21,858 nucleotides of DNA, from the IMG/VR virus record IMGVR_UViG_3300023109_000165, positions 1 to 21,858 of that record; one strand, written 5' to 3'. Every line of letters begins with the position of its first letter. Positions within the stretch are counted from its first letter, which is position 1. Origin of the DNA: a virus. Made by a program: the position numbers and the translations under genes. Positions 10,401-21,858 of this stretch are shown piece by piece. A model generated the notes under the pieces. That model was given only the letters and a program-made list of their open reading frames with translations, made no database searches and was not told where the DNA came from.

Positions 10401-12554
10401 ACAGAAATTAGTTTGAATGGATTTGGATATACAGAACCACCCTCTGTCGTCATTAAAGGCATCGGTAACGGCGCTGGAGGAGCGACAATTGAAACTGAGA
10501 TAGAGATTGATAGTCCTGCTGTTAGAATGGGCGTAGCAGTGGACCAGAGCGGTCTCACAGATTCTACTGTTCCATCACATTTTGAATTTGAGCATCCGGT
10601 ATATCTACAGAATGATACCGAGTATGCTATGGCAATTGAAACTGACTCAACTGATTATGAACTTTGGGTATCTAGACTTGGGGAAGTTGATGTCGCCACA
10701 AGTACTGTTATTACGACACAACCTTCTCTCGGTTCGGTATACAGATCACAAAATGTAGATAACTGGACAGAAGATAATTTTGAAGATGTCAAATTTACTC
10801 TATACAGAGCAGAATTTAATATCGCTAAAACTGCAGAGTTGATATTAACAAATGAATCTTTAGGTTACGAATTGTTGGCCAAGAACCCATTCAATACTAA
10901 CGCTACATCTAACACAAACGCGACTTCAAAACTCTTTAGAAACAACAACAACATTATTCAAGTATCACATAGAGATAATGGATTTGAAACTTCTGGATCT
11001 TCTTATGTTTTCTTCAAAGGTGCTGTCGAAACTGGTGGTGTAACTTCTGATGTTTTAAATAGCAAGTTATTCCAAATTACAAATAGTGGAATTGATACTT
11101 ATAATATCACATCAACTGTTGCCGCTTCTGGAAACATTGAAGGTGGTGGTGAAGTAGTGTATGCTACTTACAATAGAAAATATGAAATTCTATATCCACA
11201 AATTCAATACTTATCATTTACTGGAACTAAATTAAGTTCTTCTATTAAAACAACAAATGTTGTTCCTGTGGATTCCCTGACCAATAATTATACATCATAT
11301 TCACAAACAGATTATGAAAAGACATTTTTAAATGAACCACATTATTTCACGAATCAGAAATTTATTGCTTCGGATATTAATGAGACATTAAACAATGTGA
11401 CTTCCTTATTGTATAAGTTGTCTCTTTCATCTACCGTTTCTTATCTTTCTCCAGTAGTTGATCTTTCTACGGCAAGCGTCAAAACTGTGTCAAACAGAAT
11501 CGAATCTGCTACTGGACAGGAAGATAGATACGGAAGAAGAGACCAAATCATTGAGTTTTACCCAATCTATAAGTTCAATATAGGAAATACTAGTGGCAGT
11601 CAAATTCAAGACAACCAAGCTATCGAAGGATATACTTCAAAAGCAGTTGGCACTATTGCTAAAGTTGAAGGTTCTACAGTTTGGGTGAGACTCAAGACAA
11701 GTCAGTTCTTCAAGAGAGGAGAAAGAGTTACGTTAGGAAATCAACCAACGTTAATTGAAACTGTTAATGGTGTAGTTGTACCAGCTGCTACTATTTCTAC
11801 AAACCCAATTGAAGTATTCCTTGATATTCCAGATTCGGCAACTATGGTTGCAAGAAATCCATCCATAATTTCAGAATCGTATGATAATATTATTACTGGA
11901 ACTGCGGTTATTTGGAATAACAAGACTCAGAAACTAGAAGTTAGAAACGACACACAACCACTAGCAGATGATTTCACAGGAAGAATTACTGACAATGTAA
12001 TATTCAATAGAAATTCTGATGCGAATGATCAACTTGCCGATATCTTTAGAGTAGGAGACTTCTTGAAGTATCCGAATCAAGTAGATGATGAAGCAAGATT
12101 CTTAGAAATTAAAGCAATAACTTATGCCAACGGAATAACATATGTTTCCGACAATACTTCTAAGAACAGTTCTACTGTATCAAAATATGTTACAAAGGAA
12201 GTTGTAATTAACAACCCAGCAACTGCTATTGATGTTCACTTGACATTAAATTCTAAAGATATTAATGATGTTCAAGTTCTTTACAAATTTAAAAAATCTT
12301 CAAGTCAAGAAAACTTTGAAGATGTTAATTGGACATACTTTAATGAAGATGGATCTCCAGATTCACTAGTGATTGCTACTCCAGAAAATACAATTTCTTC
12401 GATAGTAGAAAAACAATCATCTTATCAGGATATTACTTACAGTGTGTCAAATCTCCCAGAGTTCTCATCCTTTGCGGTTAAAATTATTATGAAAGGAGTC
12501 GATCCATCATTTGTTCCCAAGATTCAAGACATTCGAGCAGTAGCAGCATTCTAA
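4437..12554 (+). CDS. Giant DUF4815-domain virion structural protein
   Basis: This 2705-residue protein opens with the signature of the phage DUF4815 family. Residues 10-60 read NPYYEDFDASKNFYKILFRPG, then QTRELTQIQSILQNQVESFG and AFKQGDLVVPG. Family members are virion proteins found next to baseplate genes; their exact place in the particle is not established as far as I know. Residues about 1361-1388 (YTMRDIGKLEKRIERLEYYT...) form a short coiled-coil-like helix. Residues about 1622-1752 are an Ig-like module starting at PVKFVISRLKPNTNISVFLEGRDI. Residues about 1785-2127 are a beta-sandwich-like region from LAQTFKIENYDGGVF to VKFTLYRAEF, carrying a large insert at about 1841-2033 with GSGY-type units. 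The C-terminus ends SFAVKIIMKGVDPSFVPKIQDIRAV. There is no signal peptide or membrane segment. A weak GGCGGA precedes the ATG. A peripheral baseplate or fibre role is inferred from family and context. Confidence 0.88.
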   Translation: MPQKTNLNVNPYYEDFDASKNFYKILFRPGYSIQTRELTQIQSILQNQVESFGKYAFKQGDLVVPGEVGLNTKLDYVKLSSVSEVAINDGNNNIVYKKYDISQLIGSQIRGLSSGVVANVLETKLATDSTADTVYVNYLSSGNSNLDSTFRQGETLEVVDGVNTPLLVVGTDGSVLPTSIQIINPDTDESTPLESPAMGYASAVKVEEGIYFVNGYFVRNEKQLLVIDDYYNNPSAKVGFTIVEQVVTPEEDASLYDNSIGSANYSAPGAHRLKISLTIKKFKLSEATDKNFIQLITVYKGLVQKKVSPTNYSLIEQTLARRTFDESGDYIVNNFSVDIREYAQKDKNGGVYKVDEFGSYNGLTESEASRKMLAGIGPGKAYIRGYEIVNKETKYLEISKARESLSSDNVTLKTKGLPTFNITNTYGSVPLNKEGGDLTAYPYINLFATYNDGSIGLNGTEKSTDHRQTLNKRGTTLSSNDGIKTITINVTNTTTTLASITDGTFANLADLYFIKTRDDSGNALTTGTLKSLSFAKVNKPLLNSNESVLFLELTVVGEKEDIELLMLEYDPGDNNYQRNLFLSAADAAIDNNELGYIIDYSETITPLVGRAKPSNYFLKNRGLGFNSDSDIILSKGKLAEGGDTYNAIFGLSYFDPEFYTKLLLETTPQNNSFGIGKYVVGLTSGAYGVVEGAPSGTYSIGNILFVKTLSGKFTSGESIRDESGVTNKIATDNTISKFIVVNRGLGYADGSTIVINGVEYDAAAAELMRLTNGSFYTIQINNKSALSIEYSQPPSVSVKQPEGAANPSVSAVILPILTRNAVTTYTPQNVKSVTSQYGSGNANIFTADLVTDDQSYAEIKSVTDFTFFGSKGYNFIESTSFNADASILLQQGDVIQFSDESNTLVRAVVQYATQRQGSAKSRVYMDTVLPGNVTNTSIVRLRPRVENANLGTLLFPTGSNQIKKVSSTPEQTNIKYFFRRDFVTTASTSGGTITFAAQLPFGTQRFATFTEENYIITVLDPGDAPNISKGDIVYVDVDSVDISSATDTASGLTSGSISLNLPTTYFGTIPVNGTFPKLKLSATLEVSNAKPRLKTSIENRRIVVTSSGDRVIPFRGTNYDSDVVETISYSDAYKLKYVYEGSATQPPTVDTSGKLISGIDVTDRFTFDNGQRDTVYDVSRIVLKPGKEQTTGQLVIAFDYFEQSQGDFCTIDSYIHEAGVTEDLIPSFNSSVYGIVNLKNLLDFRPKVDSTSFVAGFQDQSSLSESIGKFAGVGSVIAATPAPDLGLEYTMSFSQVQYLDRIDGIFLNKNGNFIVKEGNSSLNPTKPDPIDDAIALFYAYIPAFTQTSKDVRITSVDNRRYTMRDIGKLEKRIERLEYYTTLSILEQQALNMQVKDEIGLDRFKSGFLVDNFESHKSGNLISLDYQCAVDSQQSVLRPQSKEDSLFLKEVNTREDQRFVSGYKKSGDIITLPYTSLNLLGNSFASKTLNPNPFVVLQYVGDATVSPSIDQWYDQSVEPLVVDTNTDLYKIFIAKQDVRESFSSLYNSFVVNWVGSSPSFTSINSLGQINSLESQSSVSNASISSSSNISPQNNDVAKGVQSSIVRGNSVSTSLQFFARSQPVKFVISRLKPNTNISVFLEGRDISRWVNPDLRFTGIAGNSLSAFNGTVTTDNDGNASGLILLPAGFAPRQNATWSGDVDTVDYDTESEEIRVTTGVKTFRFTSSDSDVDKLTVSTYAEVKYYATGILPENPVSVISTKPSFFKANEGVQFVDSNTDNPIRPNPLAQTFKIENYDGGVFTTGIDLYFSKKSNKVPVKVYLTNVDSDKPGKNIIPGTEKILSPFTYIKFFTNGNVYITKGENVTGTTSAASGPVEKIIDKNGVDLVPSSSGRFLLTNEQVYTLVLSNHNGRSFNQNEQLSVPSVTLRNNTEGESGVLTVAKDSGKVSNIRITSTGQNYTNAILTIESPQLPGGSVATAGVEVSDGKLYNTEISLNGFGYTEPPSVVIKGIGNGAGGATIETEIEIDSPAVRMGVAVDQSGLTDSTVPSHFEFEHPVYLQNDTEYAMAIETDSTDYELWVSRLGEVDVATSTVITTQPSLGSVYRSQNVDNWTEDNFEDVKFTLYRAEFNIAKTAELILTNESLGYELLAKNPFNTNATSNTNATSKLFRNNNNIIQVSHRDNGFETSGSSYVFFKGAVETGGVTSDVLNSKLFQITNSGIDTYNITSTVAASGNIEGGGEVVYATYNRKYEILYPQIQYLSFTGTKLSSSIKTTNVVPVDSLTNNYTSYSQTDYEKTFLNEPHYFTNQKFIASDINETLNNVTSLLYKLSLSSTVSYLSPVVDLSTASVKTVSNRIESATGQEDRYGRRDQIIEFYPIYKFNIGNTSGSQIQDNQAIEGYTSKAVGTIAKVEGSTVWVRLKTSQFFKRGERVTLGNQPTLIETVNGVVVPAATISTNPIEVFLDIPDSATMVARNPSIISESYDNIITGTAVIWNNKTQKLEVRNDTQPLADDFTGRITDNVIFNRNSDANDQLADIFRVGDFLKYPNQVDDEARFLEIKAITYANGITYVSDNTSKNSSTVSKYVTKEVVINNPATAIDVHLTLNSKDINDVQVLYKFKKSSSQENFEDVNWTYFNEDGSPDSLVIATPENTISSIVEKQSSYQDITYSVSNLPEFSSFAVKIIMKGVDPSFVPKIQDIRAVAAF
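10257..10500 (+). repeat. GSGY-type beta modules inside the DUF4815 protein
   Basis: Two degenerate units are visible: 'SGKVSNIRITSTGQNYTNAIL', then 'DGKLYNTEISLNGFGYTEPP' followed by VVIKGIGNGAGGATI. They follow the pattern G-x-V/L-x-x-I-x-I-x-x-x-G-x-x-Y-T-x-x-P-x-V-x-I-x-G-G/N-G-x-G-A. Units of the same kind occur in the other large genes of this window. Confidence 0.65.
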
Positions 12555-12563
12555 TTTCCGCAT

Positions 12564-12770
12564 ATGAGTTATATTAAAGTAGAAGGTCATGATGGTCTCG
12601 TCAGAGATGAGACCACAGGTGCCATCATCAGTTTGGACGATTCTGCCATAGAATCTAGACGCAAATCAAAACACCTTGGTTCCGCGTTAGAAGACATAAA
12701 TATGTTGAAGGATGAAGTCTCTGAAATCAAATCCCTACTTAGAGAGCTAATAAAAAATGCCAGCAATTAA
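12564..12770 (+). CDS. Small coiled-coil virion-associated protein
   Basis: This 68-residue protein starts MSYIKVEGHDGLVRDETTGA and ends in a helix. From residue 38 hydrophobic residues keep an unbroken 3-4 heptad spacing (L38, A41, I45, L48, V52, I55, L59, L62), predicting a parallel coiled coil, probably dimeric or trimeric. Small genes of this form ('KVEGHD.LVRD..T.AI' plus a C-terminal coil) sit among structural genes in cyanomyoviruses, but I know of no assigned function. The ATG lies 9 bases after the stop of the giant gene with no clear ribosome binding site. The last 14 bases overlap the next gene, suggesting coupled translation. A trimeric coil next to fibre proteins might be an assembly adaptor; that is inference. 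Confidence 0.8.
   Translation: MSYIKVEGHDGLVRDETTGAIISLDDSAIESRRKSKHLGSALEDINMLKDEVSEIKSLLRELIKNASN
12695..12702 (+). promoter_or_regulatory. Possible internal late promoter ahead of the 1433-residue protein
   Basis: CATAAATA lies inside the small coiled-coil gene, 54 bases before the ATG at 12757. It fits the NATAAATA late motif of T4-like cyanophages but not the strict T4 octamer. It could give the downstream fibre genes extra transcription, or be chance in AT-rich coding DNA. Confidence 0.3.
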
Positions 12771-15700
12771 TGTCGCTAGAACAGATACCTTTGAACAACA
12801 AAGGAATAAAATTAATGATATTGGATCTCAAGTATTCAACATTGCCGCTGGTGGTTCCGATTTATCCACAGGAAATTTAAAACTTGGAGATGGATCTAAA
12901 AATATACCATCATTATCTTTTATAAGCGATAATTCTCTTGGTTTATTTAAGTCAGATTTAAATATTCTTTCTTTTGTTTCTGGATCAAGAAAGATCTTTG
13001 AATATTCAAGTTCTCAAGTTAGTTCTTATAATGATTTTTATGTCATTAAGAATGAATTAGATACTGCAGGAACTATAATTTCTTCCTCAGGAACTGGTTA
13101 TGGATCAGGAACATATACAGCAGTTCCTCTTACTGGTGGTAGTGGTAGTGGATCAGAATCTACAATTGTAGTAGAATCATTTTTAGGTTCGATAACTACA
13201 AATGCTACTGGATTGAAATCTGGTCAATATTTTACTATTCCACTTGTTGGTGGATCTGCACCAGAAAAATCTACGACGGTCAATTTTACAGTTCCAAATA
13301 TCCTAGGATCTATAAGTAATGCTGGAAGTGGATATACTGAAAATAGTTATGATGGGGTAAGTCTTACCGGAGGAAATGGTTCTGGAGCTCAAGCAACGGT
13401 AGTTGTAGATAACACGGGAGTTGTCACAGGAATTACAATTTCGGCATCTGGTTCTGGGTATTTGAATGGGGATGTGCTTGCTCCAGATACCAGCACAATG
13501 ACTTATGTCGATGAAAGTGATATTACTCAAACAAGTGGAGGACTTGGAGCAACATATGTGATTTCAAATGATCCAAGTAGTATTGACACATCAACCCTAA
13601 CTTTTTTATCTAAAGGAGATGGATATCTTGTAGGGGAAGTTCTCAGTCTCAATATAGAAGTAACTGGGGTTACATTAACAATTACTGAGGAAGAGGGTGA
13701 GCCTTCCAGTCAAATTATTATAACAGAAGCACAATATAATCAATTTACTAATGGTTCTACTATAACGAAAACTGGCGGAACTGGTGTTCTTGCTGCCAAT
13801 ACAACAATTACTTTAAGTATTGATGGAGACAGTGGAAATTACATTTTATCGTTATCTGATCAACCAACAACTGCTGGTTCTATTACAGTAACAATAACTC
13901 CGCCATATGGAGAACCAGCAACAAATCTTCAGTATACAATTTCATCTTTAGGATCTGTTGGATCAGTTACTATAACAGATGGTGGAGTTGGATATGCGGT
14001 AGGTGACGTTGTATCCACAAATCCAGCAAACTTAATTCAGAGTATTAGTTATGCTGCTACTAGCATTGCCGTACAAGAATTAACTTTCAATCCAGCAATT
14101 GCTCTTGGTGCATTAACCACATCAGATCAAGTTCAAGTACAAGGAGGAGTAATTGAAGACACAGAAGTTACTACTGCTTCTACAGGAGGAACTGCTGATG
14201 CTTCAGTAGGGGGTGTAGCACCAACCTCAACATCAGGAAATGGTGTTGGGGGATTGTTTGATGTCTCTTTTGATGAAAATGGTGTTGTAATTTCTGCTAG
14301 CATTTCAGTAGATGATGCTGGATATAACTACCAAACAAATGATACCGTAACATTAAGTGGTGCTTCTATTGGGGCGACTGGTAATACTTTGATTACCGTA
14401 ACAGCTGTATCGTCTGATGGAGCATTAGTTGATGTATTAGAAGTTGTTGATAATGGTTCAAATATTACTTCTATAGTTGTTGCTGATGGAGGATCATTCC
14501 AAGATACAAATTTAGTAAAAGATAGTACAAATGCATACCCACTCAGTGCTGTAGGATCCCAAAATAGATATCAAATTGATGGTGTTACCACACCAGATCT
14601 AACTTTCTATGTTGGTGACACAATTGAAATCACATATCCAAGTGATCACCCATTTACACTAAGTGCTTTTAGGGATGGAATATACTCCCCGAGTCTAGTG
14701 TCTTCGGTATCTGGATCAGTAACTGCAGGATCTGCAGTTATGACATTAACTTCCAGCACAGGCATTCTACCAGGAATGGTCGTAACTGCTACTGGTGCGG
14801 GAGCGATTCCATCATCTTTAATTGTTATCAGTGTAGACGGACCAACTCAGGTTACATTGTCTGGAAATGCCACAGTTACTGGAGCACTTACAGCGAATTT
14901 CTCTGGTGGTGAATATACAGAAGGAGTGTCCAGAGTAGGAACAGTCCTATCTATTAATATTACTGAAAACACCCCCACTACATTATACTACTATTGTACC
15001 AGTCATCCTAACATGGGTGGGGCAGATAATCAAGAAGCATCTATTACTATCAACAGTAATAACCCAAGAACATTTGGTTCTGGTTTAGTTCTTAATGTAT
15101 CTAGCATAACATCAACAAATATTTTTAATACAGATGTAGAAAATTCATCTGTATCAATTCCTACAATAGTAAGTTCCCAAGTAAATGGAGTAAATCAAAC
15201 TCTCACAGGAACTTTAACGGCAGCTAGTATTATAGCAACAGAGATTGCTGTACCAGAAATTAATTCTGCTGCGGATATTGTAGTTACTGCTGTCGATGAT
15301 TTAACTTTAAGTTCTACCAATATTACATTTAAAGATAAAATTGCCATAGACACTGATGGCAATATTGATAGTGCTGGATATTTCAAAACAACTTCTTACG
15401 CAGAATTTAACGAAAAATTACATTTAGAAGAAGATACAATTTCATCAAAAGCTGGTTACGATATTAATATCATACCAGCAGTAGATCAAGTAGTAAAAAT
15501 TCCAACAACTACGTCTTTAAATATTCCTTTCGGTACTACAGCAGAGAGACCAACATTATTGGCGGAAAATGGATCTATCAGATTCAACACAGAAAGTCAG
15601 CAGTATGAAGGTTACAACGCAACAACAACTGCATGGTCTTCTCTTGGAGGTGTCAGAGACCAAGACGGTAACACCTATATTAAAGCAGAGGAAACTGTTG

Positions 15701-17058
15701 GCGCAAACGACAATACTTTATATTTTATTAATGATAATATTAACACTGTAAACGTTACACCAAATTCTTTAGAATTTGTGAATGTGAAGAAGCAAAGTTC
15801 TATTAATACGGCAGCGCCAAATTTTGTTAACTGGAATGCAAATACTCCTGTTGTTGCTGGAGATTATTTGAAGTGGAAGAATAACTTATACGAAGTTATT
15901 GTAGACGGTACTACAGGCGGACCAGGATCACCTCCAGTTGATATATCAGGAAATAATTTTTTAAATGGCAATGCCACACTAGTTTATAGTCAATTAGCTG
16001 TAGCACCTATTGTATTTGAAGATATTGAAGAGGTTAGAATTGATCCAACAGGTTCTAGTCCTATTGTCATTAACAATGACTTAAAACTTTCAGAAAATAT
16101 AATCTCTTCTGTTATCAGTGATATTTTAATAGCGCCAAACAGTGGCAAAAAAGTAAAAATTGATACTAATACAACACTGGTTCTTCCATCTGGAGCGGAT
16201 GCTGATAGGGGATCACCTGATCAGGGTTCTGTTCGTTTCAATACATCTGCTCTTCAGTTTGAAGGTTATGATGGAGTCAACTGGGGTTCTCTTGGTGGCG
16301 TCAAAGACGTTGATCAGAATACTTATATTATACCAGAACTTTCTCCAGGATCAAATGAAAATATTTTATATTTTTATAATGACAATAACAATACGTTAAG
16401 ACTCACAGCAACAGCACTTGATTTTGACACAGTTGATACTATCAGATCTGTAACCAGTAATGAGTTTGAACTAACTTCATCTCTTCTAACACTTGATAAT
16501 GCATCAACAACTATTGATAACACTGATACGACAAAAACATTTATTCATAGTAATAAACCAGCATTAGAGTTAGGTCTGTCATCTGGATTAAATGTCGATC
16601 CAATTTTAAGATTCCAAGACACTGGTGATATTTTTTATAATATTGGATTTGGTACTGGAGTGTATGATGGTGTTAAAATTTTTGATTCTGAACTAAAAGA
16701 ATTTGAATTAGCAGATTATATAATTTCAACTAAAAAAATTACTTTAGTCAAAGGTTCATCTGAAATTGGAAGTGCTGTTCTTTACAGTACAGTTACTGCT
16801 AATGGTTGCCGTTGTACAATTCTTTCAAAGAATACTGCAACAGGAAATAAGTCGATGATGGAATATGGAATTATCAATAAAAGCACTACCGACATTTACA
16901 ATAACGAATACGGTGGTCTAAATAGTTCTCAGGATGGTTTCACAACTACATTTGATTTTACTGATGAAAATGAAGTACGTGCAACTGTAACTTTAACCAA
17001 TGATCATTTAGTTGGTAGTTCCGTAGAATTTACTGTAGTCACACACGCCCTCAAGTAA
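12757..17058 (+). CDS. Tail-fibre-like structural protein with GSGY repeats and a cupredoxin-like domain
   Basis: This 1433-residue protein begins MPAINVARTDTFEQQRNKIND, followed by a short conserved-looking head (AAGGSDLSTGNLKLGDG) that probably anchors it in the particle. Residues about 104-590 are glycine-rich beta repeats of the GSGY type. Residues about 603-765 resemble a cupredoxin: FYVGDTIEITYPSDHPFTL, then YYYCTSHPNMGG, split by an inserted beta module at about 649-715. Residues 888-1008 and 1109-1227 are two copies of a tail-fibre module (SIRFNT..QQYEGYN...WSSLGGV and SVRFNT..LQFEGYD...WGSLGGV). Residues about 1330-1433 form a separate C-terminal domain ending in VEFTVVTHALK. The ATG at 12757 lies inside the preceding gene (14-base overlap), and no strong ribosome binding site is visible. 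A host-contact fibre or baseplate appendage is the best reading. It has no visible homology to T4 gp10, gp12 or gp37. Confidence 0.85.
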   Translation: MPAINVARTDTFEQQRNKINDIGSQVFNIAAGGSDLSTGNLKLGDGSKNIPSLSFISDNSLGLFKSDLNILSFVSGSRKIFEYSSSQVSSYNDFYVIKNELDTAGTIISSSGTGYGSGTYTAVPLTGGSGSGSESTIVVESFLGSITTNATGLKSGQYFTIPLVGGSAPEKSTTVNFTVPNILGSISNAGSGYTENSYDGVSLTGGNGSGAQATVVVDNTGVVTGITISASGSGYLNGDVLAPDTSTMTYVDESDITQTSGGLGATYVISNDPSSIDTSTLTFLSKGDGYLVGEVLSLNIEVTGVTLTITEEEGEPSSQIIITEAQYNQFTNGSTITKTGGTGVLAANTTITLSIDGDSGNYILSLSDQPTTAGSITVTITPPYGEPATNLQYTISSLGSVGSVTITDGGVGYAVGDVVSTNPANLIQSISYAATSIAVQELTFNPAIALGALTTSDQVQVQGGVIEDTEVTTASTGGTADASVGGVAPTSTSGNGVGGLFDVSFDENGVVISASISVDDAGYNYQTNDTVTLSGASIGATGNTLITVTAVSSDGALVDVLEVVDNGSNITSIVVADGGSFQDTNLVKDSTNAYPLSAVGSQNRYQIDGVTTPDLTFYVGDTIEITYPSDHPFTLSAFRDGIYSPSLVSSVSGSVTAGSAVMTLTSSTGILPGMVVTATGAGAIPSSLIVISVDGPTQVTLSGNATVTGALTANFSGGEYTEGVSRVGTVLSINITENTPTTLYYYCTSHPNMGGADNQEASITINSNNPRTFGSGLVLNVSSITSTNIFNTDVENSSVSIPTIVSSQVNGVNQTLTGTLTAASIIATEIAVPEINSAADIVVTAVDDLTLSSTNITFKDKIAIDTDGNIDSAGYFKTTSYAEFNEKLHLEEDTISSKAGYDINIIPAVDQVVKIPTTTSLNIPFGTTAERPTLLAENGSIRFNTESQQYEGYNATTTAWSSLGGVRDQDGNTYIKAEETVGANDNTLYFINDNINTVNVTPNSLEFVNVKKQSSINTAAPNFVNWNANTPVVAGDYLKWKNNLYEVIVDGTTGGPGSPPVDISGNNFLNGNATLVYSQLAVAPIVFEDIEEVRIDPTGSSPIVINNDLKLSENIISSVISDILIAPNSGKKVKIDTNTTLVLPSGADADRGSPDQGSVRFNTSALQFEGYDGVNWGSLGGVKDVDQNTYIIPELSPGSNENILYFYNDNNNTLRLTATALDFDTVDTIRSVTSNEFELTSSLLTLDNASTTIDNTDTTKTFIHSNKPALELGLSSGLNVDPILRFQDTGDIFYNIGFGTGVYDGVKIFDSELKEFELADYIISTKKITLVKGSSEIGSAVLYSTVTANGCRCTILSKNTATGNKSMMEYGIINKSTTDIYNNEYGGLNSSQDGFTTTFDFTDENEVRATVTLTNDHLVGSSVEFTVVTHALK
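13066..13488 (+). repeat. Tandem GSGY-type beta repeats in the fibre-like protein
   Basis: Four consecutive units of about 35 residues read roughly G-T/S-I-x-x-x-G-S/T-G-Y-x-x-x-x-Y-x-x-V-x-L-T-G-G-x-G-S-G-A. Clear anchors are SSGTGYGSGTYTAVPLTGG, NAGSGYTENSYDGVSLTGG and ASGSGYLNGDVL; one unit is degenerate. Weaker units (GDGYLVGEVL, GGVGYAVGDVV, DAGYNYQTNDTVTL) continue to about 14520. Confidence 0.75.
14563..15051 (+). other. Cupredoxin-like domain with candidate type-1 copper ligands, split by an inserted module
   Basis: These bases encode residues 603-765 of the 1433-residue protein. A strand pair FYVGDTIEITYPSDHPFTL supplies His631. The loop YYYCTSHPNMGG supplies Cys747, His750 and Met753. 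His, Cys, His, Met is the ligand order of type-1 copper proteins, and C-x2-H-x2-M is the spacing in amicyanin. Between His631 and Cys747 lie 115 residues. About 67 of them (649-715, bases 14701-14901) look like a separate beta module (VTAGSAVMTLTSSTGILPGM), and removing it leaves a cupredoxin-like distance. Related domains occur in other marine phage proteins. Metal binding is not shown by sequence alone. Confidence 0.6.
15418..15780 (+). repeat. Tail-fibre repeat module, copy 1
   Basis: This encodes residues 888-1008 of the fibre-like protein, from LHLEEDTISS through VKIPTTTSLNIP, GSIRFNTESQQYEGYN, WSSLGGVRDQDGNTYIKAE to LYFINDNINT. It matches copy 2 at 16081-16437 over its whole length. The 'SIRFNT..xxFEGY....W..LGG' core is widespread in phage tail fibres. 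Confidence 0.75.
16081..16437 (+). repeat. Tail-fibre repeat module, copy 2
   Basis: This encodes residues 1109-1227, from LKLSENIISS through VKIDTNTTLVLP, GSVRFNTSALQFEGYD, WGSLGGVKDVDQNTYIIPE to LYFYNDNNNT. It is a clear but diverged duplicate of the module at 15418-15780. A 100-residue linker (15781-16080) containing YLKWKNNLYEVIVDGTTGG separates the two. Confidence 0.75.
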
Positions 17059-17059
17059 A

Positions 17060-17560
17060 ATGCCTGTTAATTTAAGAGAGTTTGATTCACTTGGTGGATT
17101 TTCTATTAATCAAACAACAATAATTGATAAAGATAAAAACGCTAAAGAATTAAATTCTTTAGAAATAAAAAATTCTTTTTATACCGATTCCAACGCAACA
17201 AAATATATTTTGCGTGGAGCTAACAGTGGTTCATTACAATTAGATGATGTTGGAACATTAATTAATATTGAAAATAATACGATAAATTTTATTACTGGTC
17301 AGATTATTGCTGTAAATCCCAACGGAACATTATTCGCAAAAAAATTAGAAAGTGCTGTATTTTGTAATGGATCCGGTGCGGTATCTATTTCGTCAACTTT
17401 AGAGACAACTATAAAAGATGATATTCCCGAAGGAGAAACTTGGGATGTTGTTCCTTTAGGGTCGGTAAATAATTTCACATATAATACTACAAGAGCAGGA
17501 ACAACATCAAATATTAAATGGATTGCTATGACAGATGTTGTATCTATCGCATGGTCGTAA
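17060..17560 (+). CDS. Small structural protein of unknown function
   Basis: This 166-residue protein (MPVNLREFDSLGGFSINQTT...) starts one base after the stop of the 1433-residue gene, so its translation is probably coupled. It is Asn/Thr/Ser/Ile-rich and looks all-beta from about residue 45 on (YILRGANSGSLQLDDVGTLI). It has a single Cys (position 98), no membrane segment and a hydrophobic C-terminus (IKWIAMTDVVSIAWS). I recognise no known domain. Its size, composition and place between two fibre-like genes suggest a minor virion protein or fibre cap, which is inference. The frame is intact, and no competing frame gives a better protein. Confidence 0.75.
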   Translation: MPVNLREFDSLGGFSINQTTIIDKDKNAKELNSLEIKNSFYTDSNATKYILRGANSGSLQLDDVGTLINIENNTINFITGQIIAVNPNGTLFAKKLESAVFCNGSGAVSISSTLETTIKDDIPEGETWDVVPLGSVNNFTYNTTRAGTTSNIKWIAMTDVVSIAWS

Positions 17561-17563
17561 TTC

Positions 17564-17571
17564 GCTAAATA
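17564..17571 (+). promoter_or_regulatory. Possible weak late promoter ahead of the last gene
   Basis: GCTAAATA keeps six bases of TATAAATA (the TAAATA core) and ends 32 bases before the ATG at 17604, a spacing close to that of the strong promoters at 2475-2488 and 4393-4400. It fills most of the only sizeable gap in this half of the window (43 bases). Sequence match alone is weak. Confidence 0.35.
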
Positions 17572-17584
17572 ATAACTAGGAAAG

Positions 17585-17629
17585 ATGAACGAGCGCACGC
17601 ACCATGAGTTTTCATATCAATTCAGATAA
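17585..17629 (+). other. Possible 14-codon leader ORF overlapping the start of the last gene
   Basis: An ATG at 17585 has AGGAAAG directly in front, a better ribosome binding site than any for the large gene at 17604. It reads 14 codons in another frame (MNERTHHEFSYQFR) and stops at 17629, 26 bases into the large gene. It may couple or tune translation of that gene, or may be chance. Confidence 0.2.
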
Positions 17630-20600
17630 AGAAAAAATTAGAGGCGTTAATCCAAAACTTATTGGTGATAATGAACTCACTATTAGAGGTGGTACTGGAT
17701 CATCTGAAAAAGAAATTTTAAGAACTCAACTAGATTCCGAAACGGATTTACCTCGTGTTGGTATTAACAGAACTGGACAAAGAGTTAATACTATCACAAT
17801 TACCGAGTCTGGTTCTGGGTATACCGCCGCACCATTAGTAGAACTCACAGCACCTCCCGAAGGTGGAACACAAGCTTTAGCATCTGCCTTTATTTTCAAC
17901 GGTCGTGTTATTAACATTGCAGTTAATAACCCAGGTAGTGGTTATAATACTGCTCCTCAAGTTGTTATTAGTGGTGGTAATGGTTCTGGTGCTGCAGCAA
18001 CATCCGCACTTGATACCGTTGACTATGAACTTGATATTAATGGTGCTATTAGAACTTCCACGTCTATCATTTCAGATACGGCGAGAATTCTAAACCTAGA
18101 TATTGACAACTTTATCACTCCAGATACAAATTTTAGAGCGCCCAACTTAAAAACATATCAAAATAATACTGGTACTTTATGGGCACCAAATATTATTCTT
18201 CAGGAAAATTCATTTAGATATTTTGGTTCAAATGTTTATCAGGCACTAAATGCTGGAGAAACTGGACCTAGCGGTCCAGAGCATGTTGATGGTATTGTTG
18301 CAAATGGCGAAGTTAACTTCAAGCATGTTGGTTTTCGTGTAATTAATGAAGAAGAATTTAGATATAATGATACCGGAGACGCAGGTGTATATCCTCGTTC
18401 TATTACTCCTCTTCTAGGAGATAGATCCGACAAAATTGCTACTACTGAATATGTACTTAACCTAGCAACAAATGACGTTGGTGGTCGTGTTTATGTTTCA
18501 GAACAAATTGGTTCCGATCTAAATGATGGTCGTTCTGCTGTTGCTCCTGTTAGAACCATTAAGAAGGCAGCACAAATTGCATGGTCTACTCCTGGTGTCA
18601 AAGAAACGTTAATTATTTCTGGTGGTGATTATGTAGAAGACAATCCCATCTCACTACCACCAGACGCATCGGTTGTTGGTGATAACCTTCGTTTGGTTAT
18701 TATAAGACCAAACAATCCTGGCAAACACATCTTTAAGTTCGGTGATAAAAACTATGTCACTGGTGTTACTTATAGAGACAAAATTGATGCTAATGGCGAT
18801 GCTGTTGCTACTTGGGATTATGCTATGGTCTTTGACGACAAGCAAAGAATTCTTGTCGATAAAGAAGTAAATGGTGATATTGGTGTAAAGTTTCCAATTG
18901 GTCATCAAGTTTTTGGTCCAGATCAATTCCGTGTTGATTTTACTGGTAACACAGGATTATCAACTCTTGCTAATGGATTGGATGTAGTTGGTTTAAATAC
19001 TGGTTCAAGAGCAAATATTATTGATGTTAGGTTTGAGGAAACAACTGGCGCTAGCGCATATATTTCTGGATCAGCTGATGTAGAACTAAAAAGTGGTTCT
19101 TTTGTTCAAGGCGAACAATTTTCCTATATCACATCTGCTGGAACTGGTGCGGCAGTTAGTGGATTAACTATTACTGCTGCTTCTGGAGAGAACAAACTCA
19201 GATCTACTTCAGATCCGTCATCTATAATTCCAGCTGGCACATATGTGTTCGTGGATGATACTAACGATGCTGTCTTTACGCAAGGTTATTATCAAATTGC
19301 TTCAATTACACCAGATGATATTGATACTCCAACTTATTGGGATATTAGATTTTTTGGTATACTAGGAGCTCCTGAATGGAATAGCACTGCTGCGATTAGT
19401 GTTAATATTAACCAAGCAACACCACAAATTGAAACTTTTAATTCTACTTCACTAATTTCAATTAGAGCTGAAGGCGAAGTTGTATCAGTCAACGAAGATT
19501 TTGAAGCTTCGTATCCTATTATTAGATTAGATTTCTCGAAGCAAGGAGATCCATCTATTACACAAAACGGTTTCCAATTTGAAACATTTGGAAATTCTGA
19601 AGATATTGGTGGTGTTGTCTTTTACACAAGTGAACTTGTAGGTAGAAGCAATACTCACGAATTAAAAGAAGGTGAAGAAATTGTAATCTCTGGAATGCCA
19701 ACTTCCAATCCAGATCTATCTGCATTGAACGGTAAACAGAGAATTTATAAAGTTCTAGAAGATGCTGATGGTCGTGCTAGAAGATTTGTAATTCCCAAAA
19801 AATTTCCTGCTGTCGTTGACAATAATGTTCAACCAGGACAAACAGCAGTTGCAAAAACTTTCACGAGAAGTGTTACATTATCGCTCCTCAACTCACCAAA
19901 CACATTCGCAACCGCAACGCCTGTCGAAAGAAGGTATCAAGATGCTGTTACATTCATCCGCAACAACAGAGAATTTATTGCCGATGAAGTAGTAGGAAAA
20001 ATTAATGATCAATTCAAAAGAGATTATTATTCCGTATATGATATTGGTGGACAAGCAACTGCTCAATTTACACCAACAAATGTAACTTATAATCCTGCTA
20101 CAGGAGATACTGTATTCACAGTAAATAACCATGGATTATCTGTAGGAAATGGTATCAGGATTGCTGATCAGTCTATCACATTTACATGTGCGATGGATGG
20201 CAATCAAACAGAACACGCATTACCTGATACGGATCAATTTGCTAGCGGAAGATCTTTACCTATCACTGCATCTGATACAAACACATTTACTGTAAACGTT
20301 GGTGCTTCTGGTCCAGATCAGCAGTTTACACCCTCTGGTGCAAATTATGATCCAGCAACAGGAAGTCTTGTTTTAACAGTCGGACCACATACATTATCTG
20401 TTGGTGAAGGTATTATTATTGATGACAATTCGTTGTCCTTCACATGTGACATGGATGGAAATCAGTCAGTTAAGACTTATCCACGTCCTGGTATTGATCC
20501 TTTTGCTGGTAGGTCTATGCCTATCACAGCAGTTGCTGAAAATACTATCACCATTAATGCTGGTATTTCAGGTCCCAATAAGTATTTCACACCAACTGGT

Positions 20601-21858
20601 GCTAATTATAATCCAGTAACAGGTGATATGACAGTCACTGTTGGACAGCATGGTCTTGGGGTCGGACGTAGCGTTGTTCTTGCTGACAACTCATTTACGT
20701 TTACATGTGATCTGGATGGAAACGTACTTCAAAGCACATACCCACGTCCTGGACAAGATCCATTTGCTGGTAAGTCTATTGCTATTACTAGCGTTGGTGC
20801 TACTCAACATACCGCAACTGATGCTCCTTATGACGCAGCAACTGGTGTAGTAACACTAACTGTTTCAAACCATGGATTTACTAACGGTGATTATGTTAAA
20901 ATTGATAATGATTCATTAACATACACTTGTGATCTAGATGGTAATGTTGCTCAAAAATCATATCCTCGTGCTGGATATGATTACCCATCAGGTCGCTGGT
21001 TAGAAATCAGCAATGTAACTACCAACACATTTGATATTAATGTAGGATCTTCTTCTTACACTGGTACTCACACCTTCGTCAGTGCGGCTGCCAATGGCAT
21101 TGACCACCAAGATGGAACGTTTACAATCAACGTTGGAACTTCTTCCGACACTTCTGCTCATACGTTCATAACTGCATCAGCAAATGCTATCAAGCATGAA
21201 CCACAATCAATACATAGTTTTTCTGGTTCAGCATCCAATGCAGTAAAACATCTACCACAGTCTGTTCACACATTTGTAAGATCTGAATCAAATTCTCTAT
21301 CTGTTGGTGGTAGTTCTTTCAGCATATATCTCGGAACATTAGATCATGTAAATACTTGGGTTAGTGGCGGTACTGTAACTTCATCTACTGGTGCTGTAGT
21401 TAACGTTACTAATTTTGTATACGACACTTCAAATACTGGTGTTGCTGTAGTAACAACTGACCAACCATTAACTCTAGCAAATGATGATATTGTAAGACTA
21501 GCAGATTTGCTAATTGAATGTGAAGCTGGACAGAAAATTTATCCAGCATACAGTGCTCCAACGTCAACAAATTCTGGAAGTAATGGCGACGTTCAATGTA
21601 AGCAAGATGTTATCCACTTCTTAAATGCTCTAACACGAGATTTAGAATTTGGATCAAATCATAATATTATTGAAGCAGCAGATAGATATGTAGTTGGCGC
21701 AAAAATTGCTTATATTGAAAATGAAATTATTCAAACAGTTCGTGCGATTGAATATGCTCGCGAACTAGCAATCTTTGCAATGTGTAATTGGAGAACTGGT
21801 GACAGAACACAATCCAGTCCAATATACGTCCCAGAGTTTACATCGTCAGAAAGATATT
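17604..21858 (+). CDS. Large beta-helix and repeat-rich virion structural protein (3' truncated)
   Basis: The frame is open from ATG 17604 to the right edge (1418 codons visible) and clearly continues beyond it. An in-frame TGA at 17586 makes 17604 the first possible ATG. Residues about 61-136 hold two GSGY units (SGSGYTAAPLVEL, PGSGYNTAPQVVISGGNGSGA). From residue about 293, GGRVYVSEQIGSDLNDGRSA, then VRTIKKAAQIA, ETLIISGGDYVEDNPISLPP and ASVVGDN, resembles the start of a pectate-lyase-type right-handed beta-helix (DUF1565-like). A helical stretch RRYQDAVTFIRNNREFIADE lies at about 776-795. Four tandem beta repeats follow at about 822-1149, then short HTF repeats. A second helical stretch follows, VIHFLNALTRDLEFGSNHN and IIQTVRAIEYARELAIFAM. 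There is no signal peptide or membrane span. A baseplate appendage or fibre protein is likely; no T4 counterpart is recognised. Confidence 0.82.
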   Translation, partial: MSFHINSDKEKIRGVNPKLIGDNELTIRGGTGSSEKEILRTQLDSETDLPRVGINRTGQRVNTITITESGSGYTAAPLVELTAPPEGGTQALASAFIFNGRVINIAVNNPGSGYNTAPQVVISGGNGSGAAATSALDTVDYELDINGAIRTSTSIISDTARILNLDIDNFITPDTNFRAPNLKTYQNNTGTLWAPNIILQENSFRYFGSNVYQALNAGETGPSGPEHVDGIVANGEVNFKHVGFRVINEEEFRYNDTGDAGVYPRSITPLLGDRSDKIATTEYVLNLATNDVGGRVYVSEQIGSDLNDGRSAVAPVRTIKKAAQIAWSTPGVKETLIISGGDYVEDNPISLPPDASVVGDNLRLVIIRPNNPGKHIFKFGDKNYVTGVTYRDKIDANGDAVATWDYAMVFDDKQRILVDKEVNGDIGVKFPIGHQVFGPDQFRVDFTGNTGLSTLANGLDVVGLNTGSRANIIDVRFEETTGASAYISGSADVELKSGSFVQGEQFSYITSAGTGAAVSGLTITAASGENKLRSTSDPSSIIPAGTYVFVDDTNDAVFTQGYYQIASITPDDIDTPTYWDIRFFGILGAPEWNSTAAISVNINQATPQIETFNSTSLISIRAEGEVVSVNEDFEASYPIIRLDFSKQGDPSITQNGFQFETFGNSEDIGGVVFYTSELVGRSNTHELKEGEEIVISGMPTSNPDLSALNGKQRIYKVLEDADGRARRFVIPKKFPAVVDNNVQPGQTAVAKTFTRSVTLSLLNSPNTFATATPVERRYQDAVTFIRNNREFIADEVVGKINDQFKRDYYSVYDIGGQATAQFTPTNVTYNPATGDTVFTVNNHGLSVGNGIRIADQSITFTCAMDGNQTEHALPDTDQFASGRSLPITASDTNTFTVNVGASGPDQQFTPSGANYDPATGSLVLTVGPHTLSVGEGIIIDDNSLSFTCDMDGNQSVKTYPRPGIDPFAGRSMPITAVAENTITINAGISGPNKYFTPTGANYNPVTGDMTVTVGQHGLGVGRSVVLADNSFTFTCDLDGNVLQSTYPRPGQDPFAGKSIAITSVGATQHTATDAPYDAATGVVTLTVSNHGFTNGDYVKIDNDSLTYTCDLDGNVAQKSYPRAGYDYPSGRWLEISNVTTNTFDINVGSSSYTGTHTFVSAAANGIDHQDGTFTINVGTSSDTSAHTFITASANAIKHEPQSIHSFSGSASNAVKHLPQSVHTFVRSESNSLSVGGSSFSIYLGTLDHVNTWVSGGTVTSSTGAVVNVTNFVYDTSNTGVAVVTTDQPLTLANDDIVRLADLLIECEAGQKIYPAYSAPTSTNSGSNGDVQCKQDVIHFLNALTRDLEFGSNHNIIEAADRYVVGAKIAYIENEIIQTVRAIEYARELAIFAMCNWRTGDRTQSSPIYVPEFTSSERY
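17784..18011 (+). repeat. Two GSGY-type modules near the N-terminus of the last gene
   Basis: The units VNTITITESGSGYTAAPLVEL and INIAVNNPGSGYNTAPQVVI are followed by SGGNGSGAAATSAL. They are the cleanest copies in the window of the pattern also seen in the upstream genes. Confidence 0.8.
20067..21051 (+). repeat. Four-copy tandem repeat (about 86 residues) with TCxxDGN motif
   Basis: Copies begin near 20067, 20325, 20586 and 20811; the first two spacings are 258 and 261 bases, while the third copy is shorter (225). Each has Y-x-x-A/V-T-G near its start, then H-x-L/F-x-x-G, a strand, T-C-A/D-M/L-D-G-N, a Y-P-R or equivalent, an A/S-G-R/K turn and, except in the shortened copy, an N-x-G end strand. 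The four Cys motifs are TCAMDGN, TCDMDGN, TCDLDGN and TCDLDGN. Copies differ at DNA level, so the duplication is not recent. This repeat type is common in marine phage structural proteins. Confidence 0.85.
21069..21299 (+). repeat. Short HTF repeats
   Basis: Four short units follow the large repeats: HTFVSAAANGIDH, HTFITASANAIKHEPQS, HSFSGSASNAVKHLPQS and HTFVRSESNSL. Spacing is 99 bases between the first two and about 54-57 bases afterwards. The His-rich pattern H-x-F...A-N-x-I/V-x-H is unusual for this window. Confidence 0.7.

Follow-up and report, generated by a model that had tools for sequence, protein, structure and literature searches.

Does a virion protein of a marine cyanophage carry a predicted copper-protein fold with a working metal site, or only a beta-sandwich in which the motif of such a site has lingered? 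The window, the whole stretch of 21,858 nucleotides analysed (IMG/VR record IMGVR_UViG_3300023109_000165), is 97.1% identical over its whole length to Synechococcus phage ACG-2014j (KJ019089), a cyanophage of the Kyanoviridae. Its ORF at 12757-17058 (+) encodes a 1433-aa protein that matches PHROG 6005, virion structural protein, and the same gene is so annotated in KJ019089. The initial annotation placed at 14563-15051, which is residues 603-765, a cupredoxin-like domain with a complete type-1 copper ligand set in a phage fibre protein. The residues are exactly as it described: His631 (CAC, 14647-14649), Cys747 (TGT, 14995-14997), His750 (CAT, 15004-15006) and Met753 (ATG, 15013-15015, the predicted axial ligand), the last three within the loop YYYCTSHPNMGG. 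The whole protein holds 3 Cys, 6 His and 7 Met, and C-x2-H-x2-M appeared in 3 of 20,000 shuffles. In three diverged alleles (79-91% identical in protein) the four residues are kept while 17, 38 and 38 of 180 codons change amino acid, two of the alleles giving the same counts. CTPHPFM, a loop with the same spacing that is apparently that of amicyanin, is named as a type-1 copper-binding loop in the title of PDB 2vmj.

The designation 'fibre' is loose, as the gene lies among baseplate-wedge and tail-fibre genes and its product, a virion protein of the baseplate or tail region, is not shown to be a fibre. Upstream are a long structural gene (called gp7 in S-MbCM7) and a small ORF, and downstream a 166-aa virion protein and a tail-fibre-like gene. 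A 68-aa ORF at 12564-12770 overlaps the start of the gene; at the same place relatives annotate a hypothetical protein of T4-GC 112, though it is not annotated in KJ019089. Three different ORFs, 26-2467, 12757-17058 and 17604-21857, match PHROG 460 (head closure Hc2) over short stretches (E 2e-4, 0.002 and 2e-9), which probably reflects a shared repeat rather than three Hc2 genes. No Rfam family reached gathering score in the window, and a promoter scan of 12400-17700 gave 13 sites against an average of 24.0 in shuffles. Against KJ019089 the gene has the same length, yet DNA identity in steps of 150 bases is 0.97-1.00 over the first 100 residues and 0.93-1.00 after residue 900, but 0.77-0.89 from about residue 101 to 900 (13057-15456, +). 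The domain lies inside this block, as expected if alleles of an exposed part are exchanged between phages, and all four ligands are kept across it; this hints at a host-facing role.

The fold is known from predicted models only. An alignment of the window domain with 50 IMG/VR relatives (50 of 80 loci from one search) gave an AlphaFold2 model (mac67a7752359) of residues 594-773, 14536-15075 (+), with pLDDT 94.7 and pTM 0.87, that is confidently predicted to be a cupredoxin with an inserted Ig-like domain. The insert, about residues 647-716 (14695-14904, +), resembles phage Ig-like domains by VIA-align, namely a decoration protein of Arthrobacter phage Bridgette (8eci_1; Z 9.2, 1.5 Å over 65 residues), a tail tube (9n71_A; Z 8.5) and tailspike LKA1 gp49 (4ru4_B; Z 7.5), but also other proteins such as ubiquitin E1 (Z 7.2). 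The remainder comprises a first cupredoxin half with the upstream His, about residues 604-646 (14566-14694, +), and a second half with the Cys-His-Met loop, about residues 717-766 (14905-15054, +), and it matches rusticyanin and copper nitrite reductase at Z 8.1 over 86-88 residues, a value near what unrelated models can reach. Plain Foldseek E-values for this composite are weak (best 0.015, rusticyanin), though in the viral library 31 matches had E <= 0.001, led by a virion structural protein of ACG-2014e.

An insert-less relative is clearer. Its model has pLDDT 95.4, and of the 50 PDB rows listed for it by Foldseek 49 are copper nitrite reductases, rusticyanins, multicopper oxidases/laccases or factor VIII, the exception being 3njk. 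The best fold match is the N-terminal cupredoxin domain of Hyphomicrobium three-domain copper nitrite reductase (2dv6, 6tfo), with Foldseek E 8.4e-4, the only one at or below 0.001, and Z 10.2, 2.6 Å over 103 residues; identity is 14-16%, and that domain is part of an enzyme, apparently without such an insert, and not a virion part. Comparison by hhalign aligns the window family to the insert-less family with the insert as one gap (probability 99.8, E 1.4e-27), and likewise to cellular copies.

Sequence links to named families are weaker. A search of the PDB with the window domain gave nothing convincing (best E 0.56, a copper nitrite reductase). The profile of the window family hit an IgA Fc receptor at E 0.0021 and that of the insert-less family mostly antibody chains from E 0.21, with plastocyanins from E 0.7; the antibody and receptor hits are read as a shared beta-sandwich and YYC signature, not as relatives. 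The window domain itself gives no match to the plastocyanin/azurin family (PF00127) at E <= 10, but one cellular copy, L285, when cut out as a domain scores 24.8 bits against the cut-off of 21.2, though the whole protein scores 20.2, below it; 15 of 55 cellular copies hit the family at E <= 0.1. In an alignment of the cellular profile to plastocyanin 3bqv all four ligands line up in the same order, the His631 column with the upstream His of plastocyanin, though at E 0.13. The amicyanin model TIGR02657 gives a weak local match (E 0.095) with 13.1 bits against a cut-off of 110.2, so the domain is not a member. The At5g54830-like domain (PF25489) partially matches residues 105-161 of the window domain (E 1.6e-4), its 22.1 bits being below the 27-bit cut-off, and is also hit at E <= 0.1 by 6 of 51 phage rows (best E 1.4e-5) and 7 of 55 cellular rows.

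The insert-less form is a widespread, unnamed module. Among annotated phages 262 of 50,697 records match it, 12 of them over at least 80% of the query; most are Synechococcus and Prochlorococcus phages, with 4 Pelagibacter and 4 Methylophilales phages. Of 12 such copies read, 8 have His, Cys, His and Met and 4 have lost them. In genomes of bacteria and archaea 108 loci encode a relative; the 80 examined include contigs filed under SAR86, SAR11, Flavobacteriaceae, Marine Group II, Photobacterium and others, but most are metagenome or single-cell assemblies and at least one SAR11 copy sits in a T7-type tail fibre, so some are viral. The link to photosynthetic hosts suggested in the initial annotation is accordingly not general. 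By text pattern 22 of the 80 ORFs start like lipoproteins, and four of these are little more than this domain; such short lipoprotein-like ORFs (167-183 aa) in contigs filed under SAR86 are possible free surface cupredoxins. The upstream His, for which the search patterns did not select, is invariant in the 62 aligned insert-less viral copies (of 68 picked under 75% identity, three that bear the insert and three that looked odd were left out). It was found by text pattern in 110 of 113 viral copies, the other three being one of the odd copies and two insert-bearing copies whose His lies outside the stretch read, and in 80 of 80 cellular copies. No paper describing this module was seen in a search restricted to open-licence text (PMC3037559, PMC8115048, PMC11705849 and PMC7112961 were among those consulted); the viral nirK gene (PMC8115048) is an enzyme gene in a myovirus scaffold, not this domain.

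Whether the site is a relic can be approached through the way in which it is lost. Three searches, with a pattern that lies downstream of the site and does not select for it, contributed the best 80 of 254, 250 and 252 relatives, and these with 16 phage records and the window gave 134 distinct positional homologues; a copy with a stop in the domain, the one of 253 not recovered, is not among them. Of the 134, 112 keep His631, Cys747 and His750. In the 22 others Cys747 and His750 are both gone every time and His631 is gone in 18, while two still have Met and one Glu at the fourth place. No sequence keeps only one of Cys747 and His750, and none loses His631, 116 residues away, while keeping Cys; this holds at 95, 90, 80 and 70% clustering, the last with 74 clusters. 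The correlation of presence (phi) is 0.889 for His631-Cys747 and 1.0 for Cys747-His750, against 378 background pairs of similarly conserved columns with a median of 0.04, though the top background pair, at 0.84 (the next is 0.49), comes close to the His631-Cys747 value. On a quick tree made without the ligand columns the fewest changes of state are 9, but only 2 independent pairs lie on well-supported branches (9 on all branches), so the number of independent losses is uncertain and sign tests cannot reach 0.05. The pattern is taken as good evidence that the three residues serve one job, which in a cupredoxin is metal binding.

The fourth ligand varies, but in an ordered way. Of the 112 intact sequences 65 have Met, 58 with C-x2-H and 7 with a longer loop, and 47 have Glu, all with a longer loop, C-x5-H or C-x6-H. 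The free loss of Met753, which the initial annotation would have counted against its reading, is thus partly true. In another subfamily, seeded by four ligand-less copies in tail-fibre or structural proteins of ACG-2014b, Syn30, S-RIM2 and ACG-2014d, 80 of 156 relatives were examined, and all 56 distinct copies among them have Asp or Glu in place of Cys and no His: the residues at the His/Cys positions are Arg/Asp in 31, Lys/Glu in 2, Leu/Glu in 20, Val/Glu in 2 and Thr/Asp in 1. A salt bridge doing the work of the metal fits the 33 with a basic residue, not the other 23.

The explanation favored, with reasonable though far from complete confidence as metal binding, the identity of the metal and redox activity are not shown, is that residues 594-773 are a predicted cupredoxin module with an intact type-1-like site that probably holds a metal, most likely copper where the axial residue is Met. 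The metal is inferred to pin the two halves of the sandwich together across the insert, which would project from it, and so to stiffen a surface module of the tail or baseplate that helps position host-contact parts; electron transfer is not needed for this job. That 22 of 134 relatives live without the site means that it is dispensable for the protein, and lineages can drop the metal by losing the whole set. Copper loading is also not obvious, as the cytoplasm where virions assemble is likely to be poor in free copper. With zinc probably far more available there, a structural site for zinc or another divalent metal is less likely overall but a serious rival, above all for the Glu form, to which S-PM2 itself belongs; a nitrite reductase with Met150 changed to Glu holds zinc according to the title of PDB 1ntd. 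Against this, the window and 64 others of the 112 have Met, apparently the usual copper axial ligand; the cellular copies are also Met-type, but the search pattern selected for that.

A metal-free scaffold that merely kept the motif is unlikely. The fold signature does stay in the 22 relatives that lack all or most ligands, and the fibre copies replace His and Cys, but a relic should decay one residue at a time, and the Cys is kept in 112 of 134 although 132 of 134 domains hold no other Cys. More remote is a redox switch in which copper in the tail senses host photosynthetic or cell-surface redox state and gates light-dependent attachment. Cyanophage P-HM2, whose adsorption falls in the dark (PMC7112961), has three copies with His, Cys, His and Met in two proteins, gp7 and the T4-GC 519 protein (domain E 3e-26, 1e-6 and 0.0013; the gp7 copy has C-x2-H-x3-M), in the 50,000 of 183,806 bases searched, and P-SSP7, reported not to depend on light, has none at E <= 1 in 44,970 of 45,176 bases. 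With two phages of different families, which differ in much else, this is a lead, nothing more; the module also sits in phages of non-photosynthetic hosts and in bacterial genomes, no electron-transfer partner is known, and a photosynthesis-specific role is rejected as a general explanation. It is similarly improbable, though not excluded, that marine phage tails carry redox-active copper in a shared module whose Met/Glu axial switch tunes or changes the metal, letting the virion sense light-driven redox state at the host surface and gating attachment or tail firing. Equally doubtful is the metal as bait for a host metal-uptake receptor, like the iron proposed for the HxH tail fibres of T4 (gp37) and marine phages such as alterophage R22Y (PMC11705849). 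Those are also metal ligands in a phage tail protein, and the domain here lies in a divergent, host-contact-like block, but it has one His-Cys-His-Met site inside a predicted beta-sandwich and there is no HxH in the protein, its His being only at 631, 750, 889, 1264, 1417 and 1430. A type-1 site would be expected to bury its metal, and the same module on lipoprotein-like bacterial proteins fits a general surface role better.

If the site holds copper or zinc, metalloproteins of the cupredoxin kind are common parts of marine virions, and no Pfam or NCBIfam model names them in the phage copies scanned here. The natural Met/Glu variants and metal-free relatives are a ready-made series for studying how a metal site is gained, altered and lost in one fold.
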